Below, piece by piece: positions 13,442-45,502 of a stretch of 64,000 nt of DNA (within the stretch, counting starts at the first letter, position 1; each line of letters opens with the position of its first letter). Where the stretch lies: positions 3,035,501 through 3,099,500 of the forward strand of contig NZ_CP072801.1 in assembly GCF_017901135.1 (NCBI RefSeq), read 5' to 3'. The notes under the pieces are model-generated. The model was given only the letters and a program-made list of their open reading frames with translations, was not told the origin of the DNA and did no database searches. The position numbers and the translations under genes are program-made. The stretch comes from Thiothrix litoralis. GTDB lineage: Bacteria > Pseudomonadota > Gammaproteobacteria > Thiotrichales > Thiotrichaceae.

Positions 13442-14668
13442 ATGAAAGTTGCCACAGCCGTTTACACGCTGGCTTCCGTTGCCGTGCTGGCTCTGATAAT
13501 AATGCGCCCACCTGTTGAAGTTGCCAGCCCAAGCGCAGCACCCGCAGCAGCACAGGCTACCGAAGCGGCTCCAGAGGCCACTGCTCCAGAAGCCGCAGCA
13601 CCAACCGCCGACAAGACCACACCAGAAGCACAGACGACCACCGTAGCACCTGAGCCAACAGCAGCAACTCCCGAACCTGAGCCAGCAGCAGCAACTCCCG
13701 AACCTGAGCCAGCAACAGCGACTCCCGAACCTGAGCCAACAGCAGCAACTCCCGAACCTGAGCCAGCAGCAGCAACTCCCGAACCTGAGCCAGCAGCAGC
13801 AACTCCCGAACCTGAGCCAGCAGCAGCAACTCCCGAACCTGAGCCAGCAGCAGCAACTCCCGAACCTGTTTCCATGCCACCTTCCTCATCGGAAGAAAAA
13901 AAAAATGATGTAGCACCGACAGCAGCCACCAAACCTGCGCCCAACCCCAAAGCTGTTCCTGATTATGTCCGTGAACAAAGCATGGCAAACGAAATCAACG
14001 GCACGCTGACCAATGGCGAAATCGTTACCCTGAGTGATGGGACGCAAAGCTTCATGGGCATCCTTACCCCGGCGGAGCATCCGCGCGGGGCGGTTATTAT
14101 TTTGCCTGGATGCGGCTTACCGCCGGATGGGGAAAACGTGACCCACCCACTGCGCACAGGTTTGGCTGCTAAGGGCTGGACAACCCTGTCCCTGCAAATG
14201 CCGGTATTGGCGAAAGAAGCCAAATACTATGATTACGTTCCCTTGTTTGCCAACGCCGACAAGCGCATTGATGCGGGCATTGCCCTCTTGAAGCAAAAAG
14301 GCATTGCGCCCGTCGTCCTAGCAGCTCACGATTGCGGGGCGCACATGGCGATGAACTGGCTGGGCAACAAGGGTGACGGCGAGATTGCCGCTTATGTAGG
14401 CTTGGGAATGGGGGCAACAGACGCAGGGCAAGAAATGGTGCAGCCCTTGCCGTTAGACAAAATGAAAATACCCGTACTCGACATCTACGGGGAAAAGGAC
14501 ACGCCACAGGTCATCAGCCTCGCGCCGGAACGCCAAGCCCTGCTGCAAAAGGGCGGAAATACCCATTCCAAACAAATGGTGTTACCAGAAGCCGATCATG
14601 ACTTCAAGAACAAGGGGGATGCGCTGAGCGCAGTGGTAGCCACTTGGCTGAATAGCCTGCCGCTATAA
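13442..14668 (+). CDS. Exported alpha/beta hydrolase-fold protein with Pro-Glu-Pro repeat linker
   Basis: 408-residue protein with an N-terminal hydrophobic anchor or signal (residues about 5-22), an Ala/Glu/Pro-rich stretch, eight 9-residue PEPEPAAAT-type repeats (about residues 70-141), and a C-terminal alpha/beta-hydrolase domain resembling DUF3530 (GAVIILPGCG, KGWTTLSLQMP, EADHDFKN). The position normally held by the nucleophile elbow GxSxG reads AHDCG, with Asp297 where Ser is expected and Cys298 beside it. The repeats should form a stiff periplasmic spacer. The ribosome site AGGAGAGG is strong. Substrate unknown. Confidence 0.82.
   Translation: MKVATAVYTLASVAVLALIIMRPPVEVASPSAAPAAAQATEAAPEATAPEAAAPTADKTTPEAQTTTVAPEPTAATPEPEPAAATPEPEPATATPEPEPTAATPEPEPAAATPEPEPAAATPEPEPAAATPEPEPAAATPEPVSMPPSSSEEKKNDVAPTAATKPAPNPKAVPDYVREQSMANEINGTLTNGEIVTLSDGTQSFMGILTPAEHPRGAVIILPGCGLPPDGENVTHPLRTGLAAKGWTTLSLQMPVLAKEAKYYDYVPLFANADKRIDAGIALLKQKGIAPVVLAAHDCGAHMAMNWLGNKGDGEIAAYVGLGMGATDAGQEMVQPLPLDKMKIPVLDIYGEKDTPQVISLAPERQALLQKGGNTHSKQMVLPEADHDFKNKGDALSAVVATWLNSLPL
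13649..13864 (+). repeat. Eight tandem copies of a 27-base unit inside a coding sequence
   Basis: Units begin at 13649 and recur every 27 bases, each starting CCTGAGCCA and ending CTCCCGAA. They encode PEPEPAAAT with A/T variants at the middle positions. Near-identity between copies suggests recent expansion by slippage or recombination. Confidence 0.95.
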
Positions 14669-37365: not shown

Positions 37366-40300
37366 CTACTGGCACGCTTCGCAGTCTGGATCAAGCAACG
37401 AACACGCCTTAGGCGCTTCCGAGCCTACCGATACCAGATTTGCCGCTCGCTTAATCCCCGCCACGCTATCCGCCGCCGAAGAATCATCCGAGCTGGTTTT
37501 TTCCGCGCCCGTAGCTCCCAGAGTACGCAGGTAATAGGTGGTTTTCAGCCCACGTACCCACGCCAGCTTGTAGAGGTTATCCAACTTCGTACCATTTGGC
37601 TCTTTCATGTACAGGTTGAGCGATTGGCCTTGGTCGATCCATTTCTGGCGGCGGCTGGCGGCCTCAACCAACCAGCGGGCGTCGATTTCAAACGCGGTGG
37701 CATACTTAGCCTTGAGGGCATCGGGCACACGGTCGAGCGGTTGCAAGGAACCGTCGAAGTATTTGAGGTCGTTGATCATGACTTCATCCCACATATCCAG
37801 CGCTTTCAAATCTTGCACCAGATACGGGTTGATGACGGTAAATTCGCCCGACAGATTGGATTTAACAAACAGGTTTTGGTAAGTCGGTTCGATGGATTGC
37901 GACACGCCGCAGATATTGGAAATAGTCGCGGTCGGGGCAATCGCCATCACGTTGGAATTGCGCATCCCTTGTGTTTTGACTTGATTGCGCAGTGTGTCCC
38001 AGTCCAGCGTTTGGGTGTGGTCGACGACGAAGTATTCGCCGCGCTCTTCGCCCAGCAGTTCCAGCGAGTCGATCGGCAGAATGCCTTTGCTCCACAACGA
38101 GCCGTTGTAGCTCGGGTATTTACCGCGTTCTGCCGCGAGATTACTGGAGGCACGAATGGCGAAATACGACACGGCCTCCATGCTTTGGTCGGCGAATTCC
38201 ACCGCTTCAGTCGTCGCGTAGGCTAGGTTCATTTTGTACAGTGCGTCTTGGAAGCCCATGATGCCCATGCCGACCGGACGGTGGCGCAGGTTGGATTTCC
38301 GCGCTTGTGGCACGCTGTAGTAGTTGTAGTCGATAACGTTATCCAGCATCCGCATCGCGGTGGTGACGGTGCGCTCCAGCTTCGTCACATCGAGCTTGCC
38401 GTCAGTAACGTGCGCGGTCAGGTTGACCGAGCCAAGGTTGCAGTTATGTACCACTAAACCATTCGCCAAGAAATTGTGATCTTCTGCTAAAGCTAAATCA
38501 AAAACAGGCTTAATACCTTTCGACACGATACTAACAACAGCACTATGCTGAAAAGCGGCTTTAGTAGAAAGCCTCTGCAAACTATCGACCAATTTAACAT
38601 GTTTGATTGGCGTTAAACTAAAACCAATAAATTTGGCAAAATTCAAAATAGACTCAGCGCCCTTAATTTCATATTGCCCCTGCCAACGGCCTTCCCGCCC
38701 ACCCACTTCACAACCACGAATACGCCCATGTATACCGAATGGCTTCAGCAGTAACTGCACATCACGCAACAAATCAATACTGGCAGAAGATAGTGAAACG
38801 GTCACGCCACCTTTAACTTTACGCTCATCGGTCATAACACAACCATCCGCCGAAAATAAGCCGGACAGAAAACTAGCAATTTGGTTCGGCTCGGCTACTT
38901 TAATCGGAGAACCAATGTATTTAGCACCGCCTTTTGCGCGTACAAAACCGAAACGTTGCTCTACATAACGAATAAAACCTTCCCGTTGACTATGCCAATT
39001 CACTACACCGTTTGGCTGGGTATAAGGTCTGGGTACATATCCGTGAGGGGTGTTATTACCTAATTCAGAAGCCTGATGCCACTTATTGATAATAGGTAAG
39101 ACAAATTGCTGTGCTTCTTGCTCATGGGGGCCGAAACAGACACCGTAACTGCTAGACATCCAGCCATCCCCCAACATCCAACCGGCTGCGGTGAAATCAG
39201 TATCCTGCTGACCCAACTCAGCATAAACAGGCTCAGTCGTTGGGCAAGCAATAAAATCGCCCGCCTGTAATTCCTTCAATTTTTTCCACTGATAGGTTTT
39301 TGGCTTATCATGATCGACTGGCATTTGTACCAAGAAAGGATGCTCTTCTGTCGCCTCAATCACAATGCCGCTTTTGGTCACTAATTCATAAACCAGCTTC
39401 TCACCCTGAACTAACAAACGTGCTTGTAAAAAGCGGGATTGCCGTTGAAGTTTTCCATCAAAAGGAACAAACACTTCGCGTCCATCACAATCCTCAATTG
39501 GCATCTGTCCATCGCGGGTTAAAACTTGTGTACCCGCTGGAAAACAAACGGCAATTTCATCGTCAGTCGTATGCAGCATTATTTCTGTGCATAAATTAGA
39601 GCTATGGACAACCCCTGTATGTTTGTTACTGTAACGGATATTGCAGGGATCTTTAAAAGTAATCCAAGGATGTCCTGTTTCAAAAATCATCCCCAACATT
39701 TTACGCCATAACTGCAAGGCAGGCAGTTTGCGGAATAACTTGATTTCGCCGCATTCAGTTTTAGCTTCGTATTCTTTGTAACGTGCTTCAAATGCTTTCC
39801 CCGTTAAATCATGCAGATCGGGGGCTTCATCTGGTGAAAACAATGTCCAATCCGCCTCTGCTGCTACCCGCTTCATAAACAAATCGGGAATCCAGTTCGC
39901 ACTATTCATGTCATGAGTACGACGGCGCTCATCCCCAGTATTTTTACGCAGCTCAAGAAAATCTTCGATGTCGATATGCCAGGTTTCGAGGTAGGCACAA
40001 ACAGCACCGCGCCTTTTTCCGCCTTGATTCACTGCTACCGCCGTATCATTCGCCACCTTCAAAAACGGCACGACCCCTTGCGACTTACCATTCGTGCCCT
40101 TGATATGCGCACCCATGCCGCGTACCCGTGACCAGTCATTACCCAAACCACCTGCGTATTTTGACAGCAAAGCATTATCTTTAATCGCGTCGTAAATCCC
40201 TTCCAGATTATCGCCAATCGTGGTCAGGTAGCACGAGGACAACTGCGGGCGCAACGTGCCAGAGTTGAACAGCGTCGGTGTGCTGCTCATGAAGTCGAAG

Positions 40301-41301
40301 CTGGACAACAGGTTGTAAAACTCAATCGCTCGGTCTTCGCGCTCGACTTCGTTAATCGCCAAACCCATCGCCACGCGCATGAAGAACACCTGCGGCAACT
40401 CAAAACGCACGCCATCATGATGCAGGAAATAGCGGTCATACAAGGTTTGCAAACCAAGGTAAGTGAACTGCAAATCGCGTTCCGGCTTAATCGCCGCCCC
40501 CAGCCTCACCAGGTCGTAACGCCCCAAATCATCCGCCAAACGTTCGACTTCCACCCCGATTTTGATGGTTTTTTTCAAAACTTCCGGGTAAAGCGCAATC
40601 ATTTCATGTTGGGTCGCTTCAGTATGCTGGCCCTCAAGGAAGCTCAACGCTTCACGGCGCAAGCTATCCATCAACATCCGCGCAGCAGCCTGGGAATAAT
40701 TCGGCTCGCGGTCAATCATCACACGGGTACTAATCACCAGAGCCGTCGCCACTTCTTTTTCGGAAATGCCATCGTACAGATTGCGCATGGTTGCGGTCAT
40801 CACCTGTTCGGCGCTGACACCCTCCAAGCCATCCATCGCTTCTGCGACGATTTTGCGCAAGCGGTCTTCATCCAGTGGTTTCAAATCGCCGGAAGCCATT
40901 TTGACGTGGATAACATTCTCGGCTTTCTTGCCTTTTTTCTTATTCTTGGCATCCTTTTCAGCACGCAAACGGGCGCGTTCTGCACGGTATAGCACGTAAC
41001 TCCGGGCTACTTTGTGTTCGCCTGCCCGCATCAAAGCAAGCTCGACTTGATCCTGAATATCCTCAATATGTACCATGCCACCTTCCGGGGTGCGACGCAG
41101 CAAGGCATCCACCACCTGCTCAGCCAACTTACCAACACTATCGTGGATGCGAGCAGATCCCGAAGCATTACTGCCCTCCACATCTAAAAATGCCTTAGTC
41201 ATGGCAACCTGTATTTTGCTGCCATCGAAGTCTGTTACCTGACCATTACGGCGAATAACTTTACATTTTGAGGTGATTTTGAAGGTGACGGCAGCTTGCA
41301 T
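37366..41301 (-). CDS. nrdA: Ribonucleotide reductase class Ia alpha subunit, intein-containing
   Basis: Catalytic subunit reducing ribonucleoside diphosphates. The 1311-residue precursor has two N-terminal ATP-cone-like domains (about residues 12-120 and 130-225), the R1 barrel with the first redox Cys in QLSSCYLTT (357), the thiyl-radical Cys in SSNLCTEIM (571), an intein (586-953), the second redox Cys directly after the intein (CNLGSVNL, 954) and the C-terminal CEAC pair. After splicing it is 943 residues, like the long Pseudomonas-type NrdA. ATG at 41301 follows AAGGA. Two NrdR-box-like sites lie upstream. Confidence 0.97.
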   Translation of the reverse strand: MQAAVTFKITSKCKVIRRNGQVTDFDGSKIQVAMTKAFLDVEGSNASGSARIHDSVGKLAEQVVDALLRRTPEGGMVHIEDIQDQVELALMRAGEHKVARSYVLYRAERARLRAEKDAKNKKKGKKAENVIHVKMASGDLKPLDEDRLRKIVAEAMDGLEGVSAEQVMTATMRNLYDGISEKEVATALVISTRVMIDREPNYSQAAARMLMDSLRREALSFLEGQHTEATQHEMIALYPEVLKKTIKIGVEVERLADDLGRYDLVRLGAAIKPERDLQFTYLGLQTLYDRYFLHHDGVRFELPQVFFMRVAMGLAINEVEREDRAIEFYNLLSSFDFMSSTPTLFNSGTLRPQLSSCYLTTIGDNLEGIYDAIKDNALLSKYAGGLGNDWSRVRGMGAHIKGTNGKSQGVVPFLKVANDTAVAVNQGGKRRGAVCAYLETWHIDIEDFLELRKNTGDERRRTHDMNSANWIPDLFMKRVAAEADWTLFSPDEAPDLHDLTGKAFEARYKEYEAKTECGEIKLFRKLPALQLWRKMLGMIFETGHPWITFKDPCNIRYSNKHTGVVHSSNLCTEIMLHTTDDEIAVCFPAGTQVLTRDGQMPIEDCDGREVFVPFDGKLQRQSRFLQARLLVQGEKLVYELVTKSGIVIEATEEHPFLVQMPVDHDKPKTYQWKKLKELQAGDFIACPTTEPVYAELGQQDTDFTAAGWMLGDGWMSSSYGVCFGPHEQEAQQFVLPIINKWHQASELGNNTPHGYVPRPYTQPNGVVNWHSQREGFIRYVEQRFGFVRAKGGAKYIGSPIKVAEPNQIASFLSGLFSADGCVMTDERKVKGGVTVSLSSASIDLLRDVQLLLKPFGIHGRIRGCEVGGREGRWQGQYEIKGAESILNFAKFIGFSLTPIKHVKLVDSLQRLSTKAAFQHSAVVSIVSKGIKPVFDLALAEDHNFLANGLVVHNCNLGSVNLTAHVTDGKLDVTKLERTVTTAMRMLDNVIDYNYYSVPQARKSNLRHRPVGMGIMGFQDALYKMNLAYATTEAVEFADQSMEAVSYFAIRASSNLAAERGKYPSYNGSLWSKGILPIDSLELLGEERGEYFVVDHTQTLDWDTLRNQVKTQGMRNSNVMAIAPTATISNICGVSQSIEPTYQNLFVKSNLSGEFTVINPYLVQDLKALDMWDEVMINDLKYFDGSLQPLDRVPDALKAKYATAFEIDARWLVEAASRRQKWIDQGQSLNLYMKEPNGTKLDNLYKLAWVRGLKTTYYLRTLGATGAEKTSSDDSSAADSVAGIKRAANLVSVGSEAPKACSLLDPDCEACQ
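38443..39546 (-). other. Intein with LAGLIDADG-type homing endonuclease, within nrdA
   Basis: 368-residue intein. It begins with Cys (CFPAGTQVLTRDG, block A), has block B (ATEEHPFLVQ), two homing-endonuclease blocks (GWMLGDGWM and SGLFSADGCV), block F (KPVFDLALAEDHNFLANG) and ends HN before extein Cys (VVHN|C, block G). All splicing residues are present, so it should be active. It interrupts the host protein between the alanine-valine of DDEIAV and the redox-active Cys that starts CNLGSVNL, the equivalent of E. coli NrdA Cys462. It is more AT-rich than the flanking nrdA sequence. Confidence 0.96.
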
Positions 41302-41338
41302 TAACAATCCTTAATTAATATCGGTTTATTTTGAGCAA

Positions 41339-41386
41339 ACACTATAGGATGTGCCTTATAGGATGGTCAAGCACAAGATATGGTCG
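41339..41386. promoter_or_regulatory. Candidate pair of NrdR boxes upstream of nrdA
   Basis: ACACTATAGGATGTGC at 41339-41354 and GCACAAGATATGGTCG at 41371-41386 resemble the 16-bp NrdR palindrome. Their starts are exactly 32 bases apart, the three-turn spacing usual for paired NrdR boxes. They lie 38-85 bases upstream of the nrdA ATG. The first box is the better match. NrdR represses ribonucleotide reductase operons when dATP is high. Confidence 0.5.
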
Positions 41387-41533
41387 AAATACCCGCCATT
41401 TCTGCTTGCTTTTTTCGATGATTTTACAAAACAGTGACTTGCCTGCATCCACTTGCGTCGTTTTTGCGTACAATCTTCTATGCCAGTTTTACTGAGCGTA
41501 AAACAACATTTTTACTCCAAGGAGATTGAGATT

Positions 41534-42310
41534 ATGAAAACAAGTACATCCCTGAAACTCGCTTTAGGTACAACTTTAGCAACCGCTTTGACATTAGGTG
41601 CAACGGTCGCGACGGCTGAAAACCCGTTTGCTGCCAACACCCTCAGCAACGGCTACATGCAACTGGCAGAAAACAAAGCGGGCGGTGAAATGAAATGCGG
41701 CGCTGGCATGTGTGGTGCCAACATGAAAAAAGCTGACGGTGCAGCAGGTGAAGACATGCCTTGCCCGGCTGACGCTGACAAAGACAACATCGTCACCAAA
41801 GAAGAATTCATGGCTCACCATGAGAAAATGTTCACTGAAGCCGATGCCGACAAAAATGGCTCGCTTGATGCTGCTGAACGCAAAGCGCTGCACCGCAAAA
41901 TGGGTGAAGGCAAATGTGGCGGCAAAGAAGCCAAGTGCGGTGGTGCAAAAGCTGACGACGCAGCTAAGCCAGCCGATGCTGCCGCCGTAGCCCCTGCTGC
42001 TGCTGCGACTACACCGGAAGCAACGACTCCGGCAGCAGCGACTCCGGCAGCAGCGACTCCGGCAGCAGCGACTCCGGCAGCAACGACTCCGGCAGCAGCG
42101 ACTCCGGCAGCAACGACTCCGGCAGCAGCGACTCCGGCAGCAACGACTCCGGCAGCAACGACTCCGGCAGCAGCGACTCCGGCAGCAGCGACTCCGGCAG
42201 CAGCGACTCCGGCAGCAACGACTCCGGCAGCAGCGACTCCGGCAGCAGCGACTCCGGCAGCAGCGACTCCGGCAGCAACGACTCCGGCTACAACTGAAGA
42301 AAATAAATAA
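41534..42310 (+). CDS. Putative HvfA/bufferin-type RiPP precursor with EF-hands and TPAAA tail
   Basis: 258-residue exported precursor. Signal peptide ends ATA before ENPF; the mature start ENPFAANTLSNGYMQLA resembles HvfA-type MNIO substrates. Cys-containing motifs KCGAGMCG (54-61) and EGKCGGKEAKCGG (126-138) bracket two canonical EF-hand loops, DADKDNIVTKEE (80-91) and DADKNGSLDAAE (104-115). Residues 165 onward are 17 TPAA(A/T) repeats ending PATTEENK. It is followed by the MNIO enzyme and its DUF2063 partner. Known relatives carry oxazolone/thioamide or thiooxazole-modified Cys that bind copper; which Cys is modified here is not known. AGGAG lies upstream. Confidence 0.85.
   Translation: MKTSTSLKLALGTTLATALTLGATVATAENPFAANTLSNGYMQLAENKAGGEMKCGAGMCGANMKKADGAAGEDMPCPADADKDNIVTKEEFMAHHEKMFTEADADKNGSLDAAERKALHRKMGEGKCGGKEAKCGGAKADDAAKPADAAAVAPAAAATTPEATTPAAATPAAATPAAATPAATTPAAATPAATTPAAATPAATTPAATTPAAATPAAATPAAATPAATTPAAATPAAATPAAATPAATTPATTEENK
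42026..42280 (+). repeat. Seventeen tandem 15-base units in the RiPP precursor gene
   Basis: Units ACTCCGGCAGCAGCG or ACTCCGGCAGCAACG repeat without interruption, encoding TPAAA or TPAAT. The two variants alternate irregularly, showing block duplications. The tail should be a flexible, glycosylation- or spacer-like extension. Confidence 0.97.
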
Positions 42311-42313
42311 GCC

Positions 42314-43141
42314 ATGCACAGCCCTGACTTACACGGGGCAGGCTTAGGTTTCCGGCGCGACCATCTGATCGCGCTGGAACAACAAGTCCCCGACTGCATT
42401 GATTTCTTTGAAATCGCCCCGGAAAACTGGATAGGCACTGACCCCGATAGCGCCAAACGCCTGCGGGCTTTCAGTGAACGCTTCCCGTTTGTCGTCCATG
42501 GGCTTTCCCTATCATTGGGTGGTTTAACCCCGCTGAATCTGGCATTTTTGCACGATCTCAAGCGCTTCATGCACGAACATCAGGTTCCGCTGTATACCGA
42601 ACACCTGTCGTGGTGCTCTGACCACGGGCAATTGTACGACCTGTTACCCATCCCGTTTACGCAAGACGCTATTCAGCACACTGTCGCCCGCATCCGCCAG
42701 ACGCAAGATGTACTGGGGCAACAAATCGCCATTGAAAACGCTTCGTTTTACCTGCAAGCCCCCATCAACGAGATGGACGAAGCCACCTTCATCAATAGCG
42801 TGCTAGAAGAAGCCGACTGCTTGCTGCATCTCGACGTGAACAACGTCTACGTCAACAGCGTCAACCACGCTTACGACCCTTACGCATTCTTACGCAAACT
42901 GCCCAAGGAACGGGTGGTTTATATACACACCGCCGGGCATTACCAGCAAGAAGCAAACCTGCTGATTGATACCCACGGCGCACCCGTCATCGACCCGGTG
43001 TGGGAATTACTGGACTTCACCTACGCCGAATTCGGGGTATTCCCCACCCTGCTGGAGCGCGATTACCACATCCCGCCGCTGGAAGAATTGCTGCCGGAAA
43101 TCGAGCACATCACCCGCTTGCAACGGAAACACGCCGCATGA
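42314..43141 (+). CDS. MNIO-family RiPP maturase (DUF692, BufB/HvfB type)
   Basis: 275-residue multinuclear non-heme iron oxidative enzyme of the DUF692 family, TIM-barrel fold. Candidate iron ligands are visible: FFEIAPENW (33-39), VHGLSLSLG (His62), TEHLSW (96-100), IENASFY (Glu141), LDVNNVYVNS (Asp174, Asn176) and IHTAGH (205-209). The family oxidises precursor Cys residues to oxazolone-thioamide or thiooxazole groups. It follows the precursor gene by 3 bases and overlaps the DUF2063 gene by ATGA, matching the bufABC/hvfABC order. Confidence 0.95.
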   Translation: MHSPDLHGAGLGFRRDHLIALEQQVPDCIDFFEIAPENWIGTDPDSAKRLRAFSERFPFVVHGLSLSLGGLTPLNLAFLHDLKRFMHEHQVPLYTEHLSWCSDHGQLYDLLPIPFTQDAIQHTVARIRQTQDVLGQQIAIENASFYLQAPINEMDEATFINSVLEEADCLLHLDVNNVYVNSVNHAYDPYAFLRKLPKERVVYIHTAGHYQQEANLLIDTHGAPVIDPVWELLDFTYAEFGVFPTLLERDYHIPPLEELLPEIEHITRLQRKHAA

Positions 43142-43908
43142 ATGCCACCGAACAGTACCAACGCAGCTTTGCTGCCCACTTGCGCAACCCCGAGCTGAAT
43201 CCGCCGCCACAAGGCGTGAATGCCGAACGTGCCGGGGTGTATGTGGAATTGCTGTTCAACAATGTGGAAGACTTCCTCAGTAGCTGCTTTCCGGTGGTAC
43301 GCAGCCTTCTTGACGACACGCAATGGAACGGCTTGGTACGGCAGTTTTACGCGGAACATGCCTGTACTACGCCGTATTTCCGCGAGATTTCGGCAGAATT
43401 TGTGGAATGGCTCACTTCGGCTTCGCTCAGTGACCGATCGAGCGCGTTCGCTGAGCGCAGTCGAAGCGTGCCGTTTCTACTGGAATTGGCGCATTACGAG
43501 TGGGTGGAGATTCCGTTGACACTGGATAATAGCGTGATCGACTGGAGCACTATCGACCCGGAAGGCGACTTGCTGGAAGGCATTCCCGCACTAAACCCGG
43601 TGATGGTGCTGCAAAGCTATCAGTACCCAGTACACCGCATTAGCGCGGAAAACCAGCCGACTGAGCCGGAACCTACCCACCTGATCGTCTTGCGCGACCA
43701 GCAGAATACAATCCAGTTTGTTACGCTGAATCCCGCGACTGCCCGGCTGGTACAACTGTTGCAGGAAAAGCTGAGCGCCCGCGAGGCCATTTTCCAGCTT
43801 GCCGAAGAAATGCAGCACCCTGAGCCTGAGCAACTTTTGGCATTTGGACAGCAAATTCTTGCACAACTCAAAACCCAAGATGTTGTGCTGGGCGTATTCA
43901 GAAATTAA
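43138..43908 (+). CDS. DUF2063 partner of the MNIO enzyme (BufC/HvfC type)
   Basis: 256-residue protein with the N-terminal DUF2063 domain (YQRSFAAHLRNPELN, RAGVYVELLFNNVEDFLSSCFPVVRSLL) that in the family binds the precursor for the MNIO enzyme. The C-terminal part (TLNPATARLVQLLQEK) is an HvfC-type winged region. A roughly 17-residue segment at about residues 93-110 (SASLSDRSSAFAERSRS) is encoded by a palindromic repeat inserted in frame. No DoxX gene (HvfD) follows. Confidence 0.92.
   Translation: MNATEQYQRSFAAHLRNPELNPPPQGVNAERAGVYVELLFNNVEDFLSSCFPVVRSLLDDTQWNGLVRQFYAEHACTTPYFREISAEFVEWLTSASLSDRSSAFAERSRSVPFLLELAHYEWVEIPLTLDNSVIDWSTIDPEGDLLEGIPALNPVMVLQSYQYPVHRISAENQPTEPEPTHLIVLRDQQNTIQFVTLNPATARLVQLLQEKLSAREAIFQLAEEMQHPEPEQLLAFGQQILAQLKTQDVVLGVFRN
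43416..43465. repeat. Palindromic repeat inserted in frame within the DUF2063 gene
   Basis: Arms 43416-43436 and 43445-43465 are inverted copies matching at 17 of 21 positions (TTCG-CT-CGCTCAG-GA core), separated by 8 bases. The CTTCG...CGCTCAG core is typical of small dispersed palindromes in bacterial genomes. It adds a Ser/Arg-rich stretch to the protein without a frameshift. Confidence 0.7.
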
Positions 43909-44033
43909 TCAATTACGTTCAACGTTCAGTAAATGTATTCCCTCCCTATTCTGTTTTGCTGCTTGATTGCTGAACTTTATGGTATATTTTTTATCCATAC
44001 ATATTATTTATTGGGGTTAAGGGGAGATTAGAG

Positions 44034-45104
44034 ATGGATACAGTTGGCTTGGCGCTGAATTTGGCACATCGGATAGCAACGCAAAGAGACCACATCAAAA
44101 CAGAAGAGGCCACCAAGACAGCTCTGATACTGCCGTTTATCAAATTGCTGGGATACGATCTTTTCAACCCTGAAGAAGTGATACCAGAATTCACAGCCGA
44201 CGTAGGTATAAAGAAAGGAGAGAAAGTCGATTATGCCATCAAAAAGGATGGCGTGATCGTCATGCTAATCGAATGCAAATGCTTGGGATCTGATCTTAGC
44301 AAAGAACACGCCTCCCAATTGTTCCGCTACTTCACGGTGACAGATTCTCGGCTTGGTGTACTAACCGATGGGGCAATCTACCGATTTTATTCCGACCTTG
44401 AACAGTCAAACAAGATGGACTCGCGCCCATTCTTTGAATTTGACCTGCGTAACTTTCGGGAAACCGAAGTCGAAGAGCTGAAAAAATTCTCCAAAGAATC
44501 CTTCTCGCTTAGCAATATTCTTGCGACAGCCAGCAGCTTGAAATACTTGCGGGCGGCCAAACGCATCATCACAGATGAGATAGCTGACCCCAGTATCGAC
44601 TTTATCAAGTTCGTCGCCTCAAAAGTCCATGATGGGCGGATGACTGCGCCCGCTCTTGAAATGTTCAAGCCGATCATCCACGCCGCCTGCCAACAGTTTC
44701 TAGACGAAAAAATGGATGAATGCCGGAAAGACACACTGACCACACCAGACAAAACTGAGCCATTGCTTGGGGTAGACACACTGCAAACCGAGCACCAACC
44801 AAGCACTAAAGGTTGGATCGTAACGACAGCAGAAGAGATTGAAGGTCACCAAATTGTAAAAGCAATCGTGCGCCAAGCAGTCGATGCCAGCCGCGTAACC
44901 ATGCGTGATACCCAAAGCTATTGTGGGGTATTACTGGACGACAACAACCGCAAGCCAATTTGCCGACTCTACTTCAATAATTCCCAGAAATACTTGGCTG
45001 TGTTTGATAAAAAACAAGAGCAACGCATCCCCATTAAGAACTTGGACGAAATATACCAACACGCAGACCGGATGCTGACAACAGTCAAAGGTTATGAAGC
45101 TTAA
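44034..45104 (+). CDS. HsdR N-terminal-like PD-(D/E)XK nuclease domain protein, stand-alone
   Basis: 356-residue protein resembling the COG4748/HsdR_N group (type I restriction enzyme R-protein N-terminal domain). N-terminal HIKTEEATKTALILPFIKLLGYD is the family helix; the nuclease site is KVDYAIKKDGVIVMLIECKC (Asp, Glu-x-Lys), and QLFRYFTVTDSRLGVLTDG follows. The C-terminal 130 residues are a separate region of unknown role. No methyltransferase or helicase is beside it. Members of this group occur as solitary genes and may act in defence; that is inference. Confidence 0.8.
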   Translation: MDTVGLALNLAHRIATQRDHIKTEEATKTALILPFIKLLGYDLFNPEEVIPEFTADVGIKKGEKVDYAIKKDGVIVMLIECKCLGSDLSKEHASQLFRYFTVTDSRLGVLTDGAIYRFYSDLEQSNKMDSRPFFEFDLRNFRETEVEELKKFSKESFSLSNILATASSLKYLRAAKRIITDEIADPSIDFIKFVASKVHDGRMTAPALEMFKPIIHAACQQFLDEKMDECRKDTLTTPDKTEPLLGVDTLQTEHQPSTKGWIVTTAEEIEGHQIVKAIVRQAVDASRVTMRDTQSYCGVLLDDNNRKPICRLYFNNSQKYLAVFDKKQEQRIPIKNLDEIYQHADRMLTTVKGYEA

Positions 45105-45295
45105 AAAGCCCTCATGATTGCGATGGGCAACCAACGTAAATTAAGCGGCAAATATGGAAAAATAATGGAGATTGCCCAATAAGCAATTTCGCCTTCTATC
45201 AGCAAATACGTGCCAGTATCGGTAACTTCTATGCTTACTGATCAATGGAATGTGCTATCTAGAGAGTACATTCCTTATTGAAGGCATTGCCCCCT

Positions 45296-45502
45296 ATGCA
45301 TATCACTTCGCAACTTCCCGCCCTACTCATTGTTTTGGCTGTGTTAAGCCTGCTCAACGGCTGCACGGCAATTCCCCCAGCCAAGGAAACCGAAACCCAA
45401 AGCGTTCAAGAAGTCGCCAAAGAGGCCATGAACTCCACGGGTAAACTCAGCAAGGAACAGGTTGATGCCCTGATCCGCGCTAACGCCGCCTGCCGACCAT
45501 GA
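45296..45502 (+). CDS. Small lipoprotein
   Basis: 68 residues: signal sequence with lipobox LLNGC, then a short charged helix (KETETQSVQEVAKEAMNSTGKLSKEQVDALIRANAACRP). An ATG at 45296 was chosen over a TTG at 45278. It has no recognised family. It stands alone, with about 190 bases upstream in which I see no clear feature. Confidence 0.55.
   Translation: MHITSQLPALLIVLAVLSLLNGCTAIPPAKETETQSVQEVAKEAMNSTGKLSKEQVDALIRANAACRP

Follow-up and report, generated by a model that had tools for sequence, protein, structure and literature searches.

A genus-conserved HvfABC-type operon of Thiothrix litoralis with cysteine motifs on both sides of an EF-hand pair in the precursor

We analyzed a window of 64,000 nucleotides (nt) from the Thiothrix litoralis genome (the whole stretch, contig NZ_CP072801.1, positions 3,035,501 to 3,099,500; coordinates below are those of the window) and describe here an operon at 41534-43908. 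It is comprised of genes for a precursor protein (P0001), an MNIO enzyme (P0002, HvfB) and an HvfC-family partner (P0003), in the order of HvfABC/captophorin operons. The operon is real, conserved in the genus, and a variant of a published chimaera. We consider it fairly probable that this is an HvfABC-type operon for a ribosomally synthesized and post-translationally modified peptide (RiPP), with an HvfA/EfhP-like chimaeric precursor combining modified cysteine arms and a Ca2+-binding EF-hand pair. The precursor itself is most likely an HvfA-like RiPP metallophore that carries a Ca2+ module.

The initial annotation had assigned the locus to the HvfABC type, and this assignment stands, as the gene order is the one it gave and both enzyme partners score above curated cut-offs. 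P0002 matches Pfam MNIO PF05114 (E = 1e-102) and the NCBIfam HvfB model NF003818 (396.8 bits, cut-off 360), and stays below the cut-off of the bufferin-maturase model (270.7 bits, cut-off 310). P0003 matches NGO1945_C (E = 6.5e-28) and DUF2063 (E = 4e-27) in Pfam, the NCBIfam HvfC model NF050145 (285.1 bits, cut-off 142), and the solved structure 3DEE (E = 1.4e-13). Three nucleotides separate the precursor stop codon from the hvfB start, and the ATG of hvfC overlaps the hvfB stop; therefore, the three genes are probably co-transcribed. A promoter and terminator scan of 41300-44050 yielded counts not above those in shuffled sequences.

Thirty-nine HvfB residues are identical across all 89 aligned MNIOs (87 HvfB-type and 2 bufferin-type), including H62, H97, E141, D174, H205, D219, H221, and E248; such His, Asp, and Glu positions could be iron ligands. 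The Haemophilus influenzae HvfB needs N175, D242, and H244 for activity (PMC13419390), and D219-T-H221 has the spacing of D242/H244, a comparison by spacing between two unaligned proteins. The window genome carries two MNIO genes above the Pfam cut-off, hvfB and a second one (locus L001) found together with open reading frames (ORFs) for a small Cys-rich protein, a DUF2063-like protein, and a DoxX-like protein; by inspection, we read L001 as a Buf1-type bufferin operon. Inside hvfC, there is a palindromic, repeat-like stretch at about 43425-43473, which is translated in frame and yields ∼10 extra residues. Among 15 Thiothrix loci, it is found in the own genome (L018) and L019 and, in a diverged form, in L023; it is cleanly missing from L020, L021, L022, L026, and L027, and the length varies in the other seven. 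A second match to this stretch, with two mismatches, lies at 14623.

The precursor was found in 14 of 16 Thiothrix genomes, the own genome included, and HvfB orthologues with 75-100% identity in 15 of 16. In T. lacustris DSM 21227, the closest named record found, the precursor is 89% and HvfB 98% identical. One genome (G009) has neither orthologue, its only MNIO being 38% identical to P0002. The motifs KCGAGMCG and EGKCGGKEAKCGG flank the EF pair exactly as the initial annotation had it, and the combination of KCG/EGKCG motifs with EF loops is conserved genus-wide. In the 14 aligned precursor cores, C55, C60, C77, and C128 are invariant, as is much of the leader. Four cysteines (C55, C60, C128, and C135) occur in pairs, with a Gly after each of them. 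The fifth, C77, was not mentioned in the initial annotation; since it is followed by Pro and the related enzyme FonBC is reported to be intolerant of Pro at all sites (PMC12668002), C77 may stay a free thiol adjoining the first Ca2+ loop. The same study reports that FonBC modified a two-repeat and not a single-repeat substrate, that in one variant series only Ala besides Gly was tolerated after Cys, and that one Cys-Tyr substrate was nevertheless modified once. The number of cysteines in EGKCG-type precursors of related genomes varies widely, with, for instance, 2 in L116 and 14 in L085 and L148.

To place the precursor among its relatives, we ran profile searches in 369 genomes of the class, 398 genomes of the phylum, and four genomes of one order. 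The class search gave 78 match rows; we read 30 with their loci (L145 and L157 gave no ORF) and fetched 12 more genes. From the phylum search, we examined 30 rows with loci (L233 and L236 gave no ORF) and ten regions (nine further rows and G610 again); rows outside this phylum sample were mostly EF-only matches. The class-search matches fell in 70 genomes, 35 of which were searched for MNIO genes. The same domain order, for which the initial annotation proposed to search, does occur elsewhere: KCG or EGKCG motifs combined with EF loops are present in other genomes, and all such precursors found outside Thiothrix belong to the class of the window genome. In total, 32 precursors with EF loops and cysteine motifs were read, including the 14 from Thiothrix. 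Cys-Gly motifs both before and behind the EF pair, which we call the sandwich layout, are seen in 26, of which 12 are from outside the genus (G095, G059, G349, G261, G200, G027, G382, G058, G148, G648, G761, and G199), and all 26 have at least one Cys behind the second loop. In the remaining six (G497, G513, G289, G434, G666, and G426), the EF pair is C-terminal and not followed by any Cys; the loops are similar to those in EfhP, and the layout is that of the published chimaera description (PMC12452194). These numbers count precursors read and are neither a census nor frequencies, because G199, an unread row of the class search, turned out in a later search to hold a sandwich. Twelve residues separate the loops in 21 of the 32 precursors, 13 in one, 14 in two, and 15 in eight.

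Most of these genes lie next to hvfB. The precursor ends at most 75 nt from hvfB in 11 of 14 Thiothrix genomes; outside the genus, eight of 12 sandwich genes and five of six EfhP-like ones are directly upstream of it, with gaps of 17 to 164 nt. An MNIO gene is present in all 26 sandwich genomes. As a control, we took EF-hand proteins without a KCG motif from the same searches (L172, L173, L175, L176, L232, L237, L238, L241, L242, and L268-L277), and none of the 19 had hvfB in the examined stretch of 1.5 to ∼5 kb per side, less at contig ends (L272 and L277). Two of them, L232 and L274, contain one other Cys-Gly each, and one control genome (G186) had no MNIO match at all.

The product of the operon may act as follows. 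The leader NPFxxxxLSNGYMQLAE would be held by HvfC, while HvfB would oxidize C55, C60, C128, and C135 in the cytoplasm to copper-binding 5-thiooxazoles, the group that FonBC and HvfBC make (PMC12668002). Sec would then export the modified precursor to the periplasm, where the EF pair would bind Ca2+ and the two flanking arms Cu(I) or another soft metal.

Several observations weigh against this reading; some concern the protein and others the linkage of its gene. Against the HvfA model NF050188 (cut-off 95), the precursor reaches 16.9 bits, or 24.8 bits without the tail, and no match was reported for it with a second HvfA model, NF050137. Still, it is the only match to the HvfA model in the window genome, and at E ≤0.1 the two models match 11 and ten of 13 aligned sandwich members, respectively (best 4.6e-17 and 4.5e-15). 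The Met before C60 was not seen among the substitutions reported for FonBC (PMC12668002). The initial annotation described two canonical EF loops; both loops are there and the second is regular, but the first has an atypical Asn at position 6, where the other 13 of the 14 Thiothrix orthologues have Gly, and both Pfam models remain just under threshold (EF-hand_1, 24.9 bits, cut-off 25.4; EF-hand_5, two stretches, 22.1 bits, cut-off 25.9). As the authors of the EfhP work called Gly6 critical for high affinity (PMC9132961), the predicted Ca2+ binding of the EF pair in this strain may be weaker than in the 13 congeners. AlphaFold predictions for seven sequences in two runs had a mean predicted local distance difference test (pLDDT) of 44 and 49, that is, low confidence for the fold and the arm geometry.

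As for linkage, the precursor is apart from hvfB in three of 14 Thiothrix genomes, by 1.7 kb in G011, ∼60 kb in G015, and ∼156 kb in G001, and in four of the 12 sandwich genomes outside the genus (G095, G059, G349, and G200); the unlinked EfhP-like case is G497. The initial annotation had held that homologues unlinked to a DUF692 gene would refute it. Such homologues thus exist, but each of these sandwich genomes has an MNIO gene, and for this reason we read the unlinked precursors as modified in trans. According to Antoine et al., stand-alone precursors are either modified in trans or not modified. In G059 and G200, an HvfBC run has its own EGKCG-repeat precursor on the same strand within ∼3 kb; in G059, the leader of the orphan sandwich is nearly that of this precursor (TELSSGYMVADGHEGKCGEGKCGEGK in both), and in G200 the two are similar but less close. 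Around the orphan genes, no shared neighbor was seen in L164, L165, and L168, and ORF calls in L166 are unreliable. In G001, G015, and G011, the EF gene still adjoins the ribonucleotide reductase gene, as it does in the window. A contig scan seeded with [SN]GYMQLA[ED] and GEMKCGA[GS] gave 80 loci; because of this seeding, they are no evidence of a general leader. Six of them (Thiothrix, L054-L059) have EF loops; among the 74 EF-free EGKCG relatives, hvfB was in the examined stretch in 28, several stretches reaching a contig end. This tells against a special tie of the EF type to hvfB; for the same reason, loose linkage is not special to that type, and unlinked stand-alone precursors in the wider family are also known from the literature.

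We built a quick tree, without bootstrap, of 87 HvfB proteins and two outgroup rows, and labeled each by the precursor beside hvfB (L026 and L028 were set by hand; L027 and L031 were counted as EF despite a non-adjacent EF gene, and L178 and L208 as non-EF even with an orphan sandwich in the genome). The EF label requires five changes, and the starred branches force at least three changes for the non-EF group; on this tree, gain and loss of the label look alike. EF modules are paired with HvfB of Thiothrix, of families f133 and f44, and of the f13/f160/f181 group. Since they sit with several HvfB clades, the pairing of EF precursors with HvfB probably arose, was lost, or was swapped more than once.

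A different Cys-repeat gene also occurs near hvfB in the genus. In G014, HvfB is present and no EF gene was found at E = 1e-5; the genome has a divergently oriented, lipoprotein-like gene carrying DGSCGAKK repeats. This gene or a diverged relative (51-61% identity, G004 and G008) is present in nine of 16 Thiothrix genomes and had no match in the window genome at E = 1e-5. It is divergently oriented relative to hvfB in G001 and G014, and directly follows hvfC in G007, G008, and G004 (L257, L258, L261, L264, and L265, in the order of the genomes). The encoded lipoprotein-like protein may serve HvfBC as a second, lipid-anchored substrate.

Alternatively, the protein could be an EfhP-like Ca2+ sensor, in which Ca2+ exposes a partner-binding surface and the cysteine arms do not hold copper but respond to redox state or iron. 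We consider this unlikely, even though the gene order is the same for EfhP (PMC4053335), EfhP is reported to bind Ca2+ with a structural change (PMC9132961) and to control iron uptake, and iron sensing by EGKCG repeats has been proposed (PMC11559002). The loops in EfhP and in five of the six precursors with C-terminal EF pairs are 15 residues apart, whereas in the window protein 12 residues separate them and the EF pair is followed by a second Cys motif; moreover, no shared neighbor, such as might mark a partner, was seen beside the four orphan genes (with the caveat of L166). That the cysteines stay unmodified, as plain thiols or disulphides, with the HvfBC link being historical, seems highly unlikely to us. 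It would fit the non-adjacent genes and the two Thiothrix genomes in which the neighbor of hvfB is another, lipoprotein-like gene with Cys repeats; however, the KCG context and the leader are conserved, MNIO genes accompany all 26 sandwich precursors, and hvfB was beside none of the KCG-free EF-hand proteins.

The EF pair could also be imagined to bind lanthanides as in lanmodulin, which we regard as extremely improbable. In a search of solved structures with the EF core, lanmodulins came first, ahead of calmodulins, among the best 60 of 117 matches at E ≤0.01; the best of those listed, 8fns and 6mi5, align over 40 residues without gaps and precede many calmodulins. The whole-chain E-value is ∼2e-7, while single 40-residue stretches reach only 0.03-0.07, and we put the ranking down to the equally short inter-loop stretch. 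The lanmodulin model also matches all 13 aligned sandwich members at E ≤0.1 (best 3.1e-10), with 12 inter-loop residues. However, the window protein scores 27.9 bits against a family cut-off of 135 and has a single EF pair, and the Pro that the matched lanmodulin loops have at position 2 occurs in none of the 64 loops of our 32 proteins. Membership in the lanmodulin family was therefore rejected.

Returning to the metallophore with modified arms, a more specific and rather improbable version is a Ca2+-gated clamp: by folding a loose EF pair, Ca2+ would draw the N-terminal and the C-terminal 5-thiooxazole arm together, and the two would form a single Cu(I) site of high affinity. This would need the two-sided cysteine layout, which is what the 26 sandwich genomes have. 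If true, copper capture and release in the periplasm would depend on Ca2+, and a single protein would signal both metals together.

The C-terminal tail was noted initially as a 17-copy repeat and as one of the unusual traits of the precursor. The count is right: there are 17 perfect consecutive units, 11 TPAAA and six TPAAT, and Tandem Repeats Finder (TRF) reports 15 bp × 18.3 copies with a score of 494. The tail does not belong to the conserved design, as the TPAA unit is private to T. litoralis among the species compared, and we rejected the tail as a conserved element. The nearest relative, with HvfB 98% identical, has AVPAA repeats, other orthologues have short or Lys/Glu/Thr-rich ends, and no such tail was seen in the 12 sandwiches outside Thiothrix. 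Most likely, the tail is a repeat expansion under weak constraint or none. The 85 perfect residues of a Pro/Ala/Thr unit and the shorter Ala/Pro-rich tails of several orthologues would suit a functional tail, for example a spacer carrying the metal-binding head across the periplasm, but given the private unit and the differing or tail-free relatives this is distinctly unlikely.

Table 1. Features of the operon, in window coordinates
Feature	Position	Strand	Basis
Shine-Dalgarno-like AAGGAG of the precursor gene	41519..41524	+	read in the sequence, 5' of ATG
Precursor P0001, EF-hand/KCG chimaeric, HvfA-like, 258 amino acids (aa)	41534..42310	+	ORF; orthologues in 14/16 genus genomes, own included
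Likely Sec signal peptide, residues 1-28	41534..41617	+	hydrophobic N-terminus, by inspection
Leader motif NPFxxxxLSNGYMQLAE, common to EGKCG-repeat precursors	41621..41671	+	alignment, searches (one seeded with GYMQLA)
N-terminal Cys motif KCGAGMCG, residues 54-61 (C55, C60)	41693..41716	+	both Cys invariant, 14/14
C77, followed by Pro; three residues 5' of EF loop 1	41762..41764	+	invariant, 14/14
EF loop 1 DADKDNIVTKEE, residues 80-91; atypical Asn at position 6	41771..41806	+	Pfam, sequence comparison
EF loop 2 DADKNGSLDAAE, residues 104-115; 12 residues past loop 1	41843..41878	+	Pfam, sequence comparison
C-terminal Cys motif EGKCGGKEAKCGG, residues 125-137 (C128, C135)	41906..41944	+	C128 invariant, 14/14
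Tail of 17 × TPAA(A/T), residues 165-249, 15-bp tandem repeat	42026..42280	+	TRF, sequence; not conserved
hvfB product P0002, HvfB-family MNIO (DUF692), 275 aa	42314..43141	+	ORF, Pfam, NCBIfam
hvfC product P0003, HvfC-family partner (DUF2063 + NGO1945_C), 256 aa	43138..43908	+	ORF, Pfam, NCBIfam

On the 5' side of the operon, the ribonucleotide reductase large subunit gene (37366-41307, minus strand) contains an intein with a LAGLIDADG-like domain (PF14890 and PF14528, above the Pfam cut-off). Just 3' of it, a gene at 44034-45104 (plus strand) encodes a stand-alone 356-aa protein with a type I restriction HSDR_N domain. It is followed by a small lipoprotein-like ORF at 45278-45502 (plus strand) with no Pfam match, and look-alikes of this ORF are found behind HvfC in L027 and L031.

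The relatives collected here show that EF-hand precursors linked to MNIO genes make up a broader group. Our analysis adds the two-sided cysteine layout and the range of genomes in which it occurs, the cases in which an unlinked sandwich has a leader related to that of a precursor near HvfBC, the control with KCG-free EF-hand proteins, and the finding that the tail is private. Having an EF pair with two Cys-Gly motifs on each side, the Thiothrix protein offers a simple model for a testable question: whether a bacterial EF-hand protein is a RiPP, and whether there is cross-talk between its putative calcium and copper sites. The dual-metal idea is plausible and has already been voiced for relatives, with a Ca/Fe role (PMC11559002) and a Ca/Cu role (PMC12452194) proposed.

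The precursor is less unusual than the initial annotation supposed. MNIO-linked EGKCG|EF-hand chimaeras are already in print (PMC12452194), and for EfhP (PA4107) of Pseudomonas aeruginosa a probable operon with DUF692 and DUF2063 genes was described in 2014 (PMC4053335). Like the Buf_EGKC|EF-hand_5 chimaera (PMC12452194), the window protein has a short Cys motif region and a gene beside that of an MNIO, together with a likely N-terminal membrane or signal helix and two EF-hand stretches that score just under the EF-hand_5 cut-off; unlike it, it has a further Cys motif (C128 and C135) and a tail behind the EF pair, so that its EF domains are not C-terminal to the whole Cys region. Our searches of openly licensed PubMed Central papers, figures and supplements aside, did not turn up the sandwich layout. 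EfhP shares the gene order and the combination of an EF pair with EGKCG cysteines, but it has four EGKCG repeats, described as not yet characterized (PMC11559002), and loops at 88-99 and 115-126; we infer from the close loop match to L222-L225 that its EF pair follows the repeats. Recombinant EfhP is reported to bind Ca2+ at 13.7 µM; its authors regard EfhP as the sole Ca2+ sensor with EF-hands in P. aeruginosa (PMC9132961), and it links Ca2+ to iron (PMC11559002). With lanmodulin, the window protein has in common the 12 residues between the loops and the ungapped alignment, and differs in the features weighed above. The HvfABC oxazolin and the captophorins fontiphorin and gonophorin share with our operon the HvfB and HvfC families, the gene order, and the EGKCG/KCG motifs; they are without EF-hands, whereas the window precursor carries an EF pair and scores under the HvfA cut-off.

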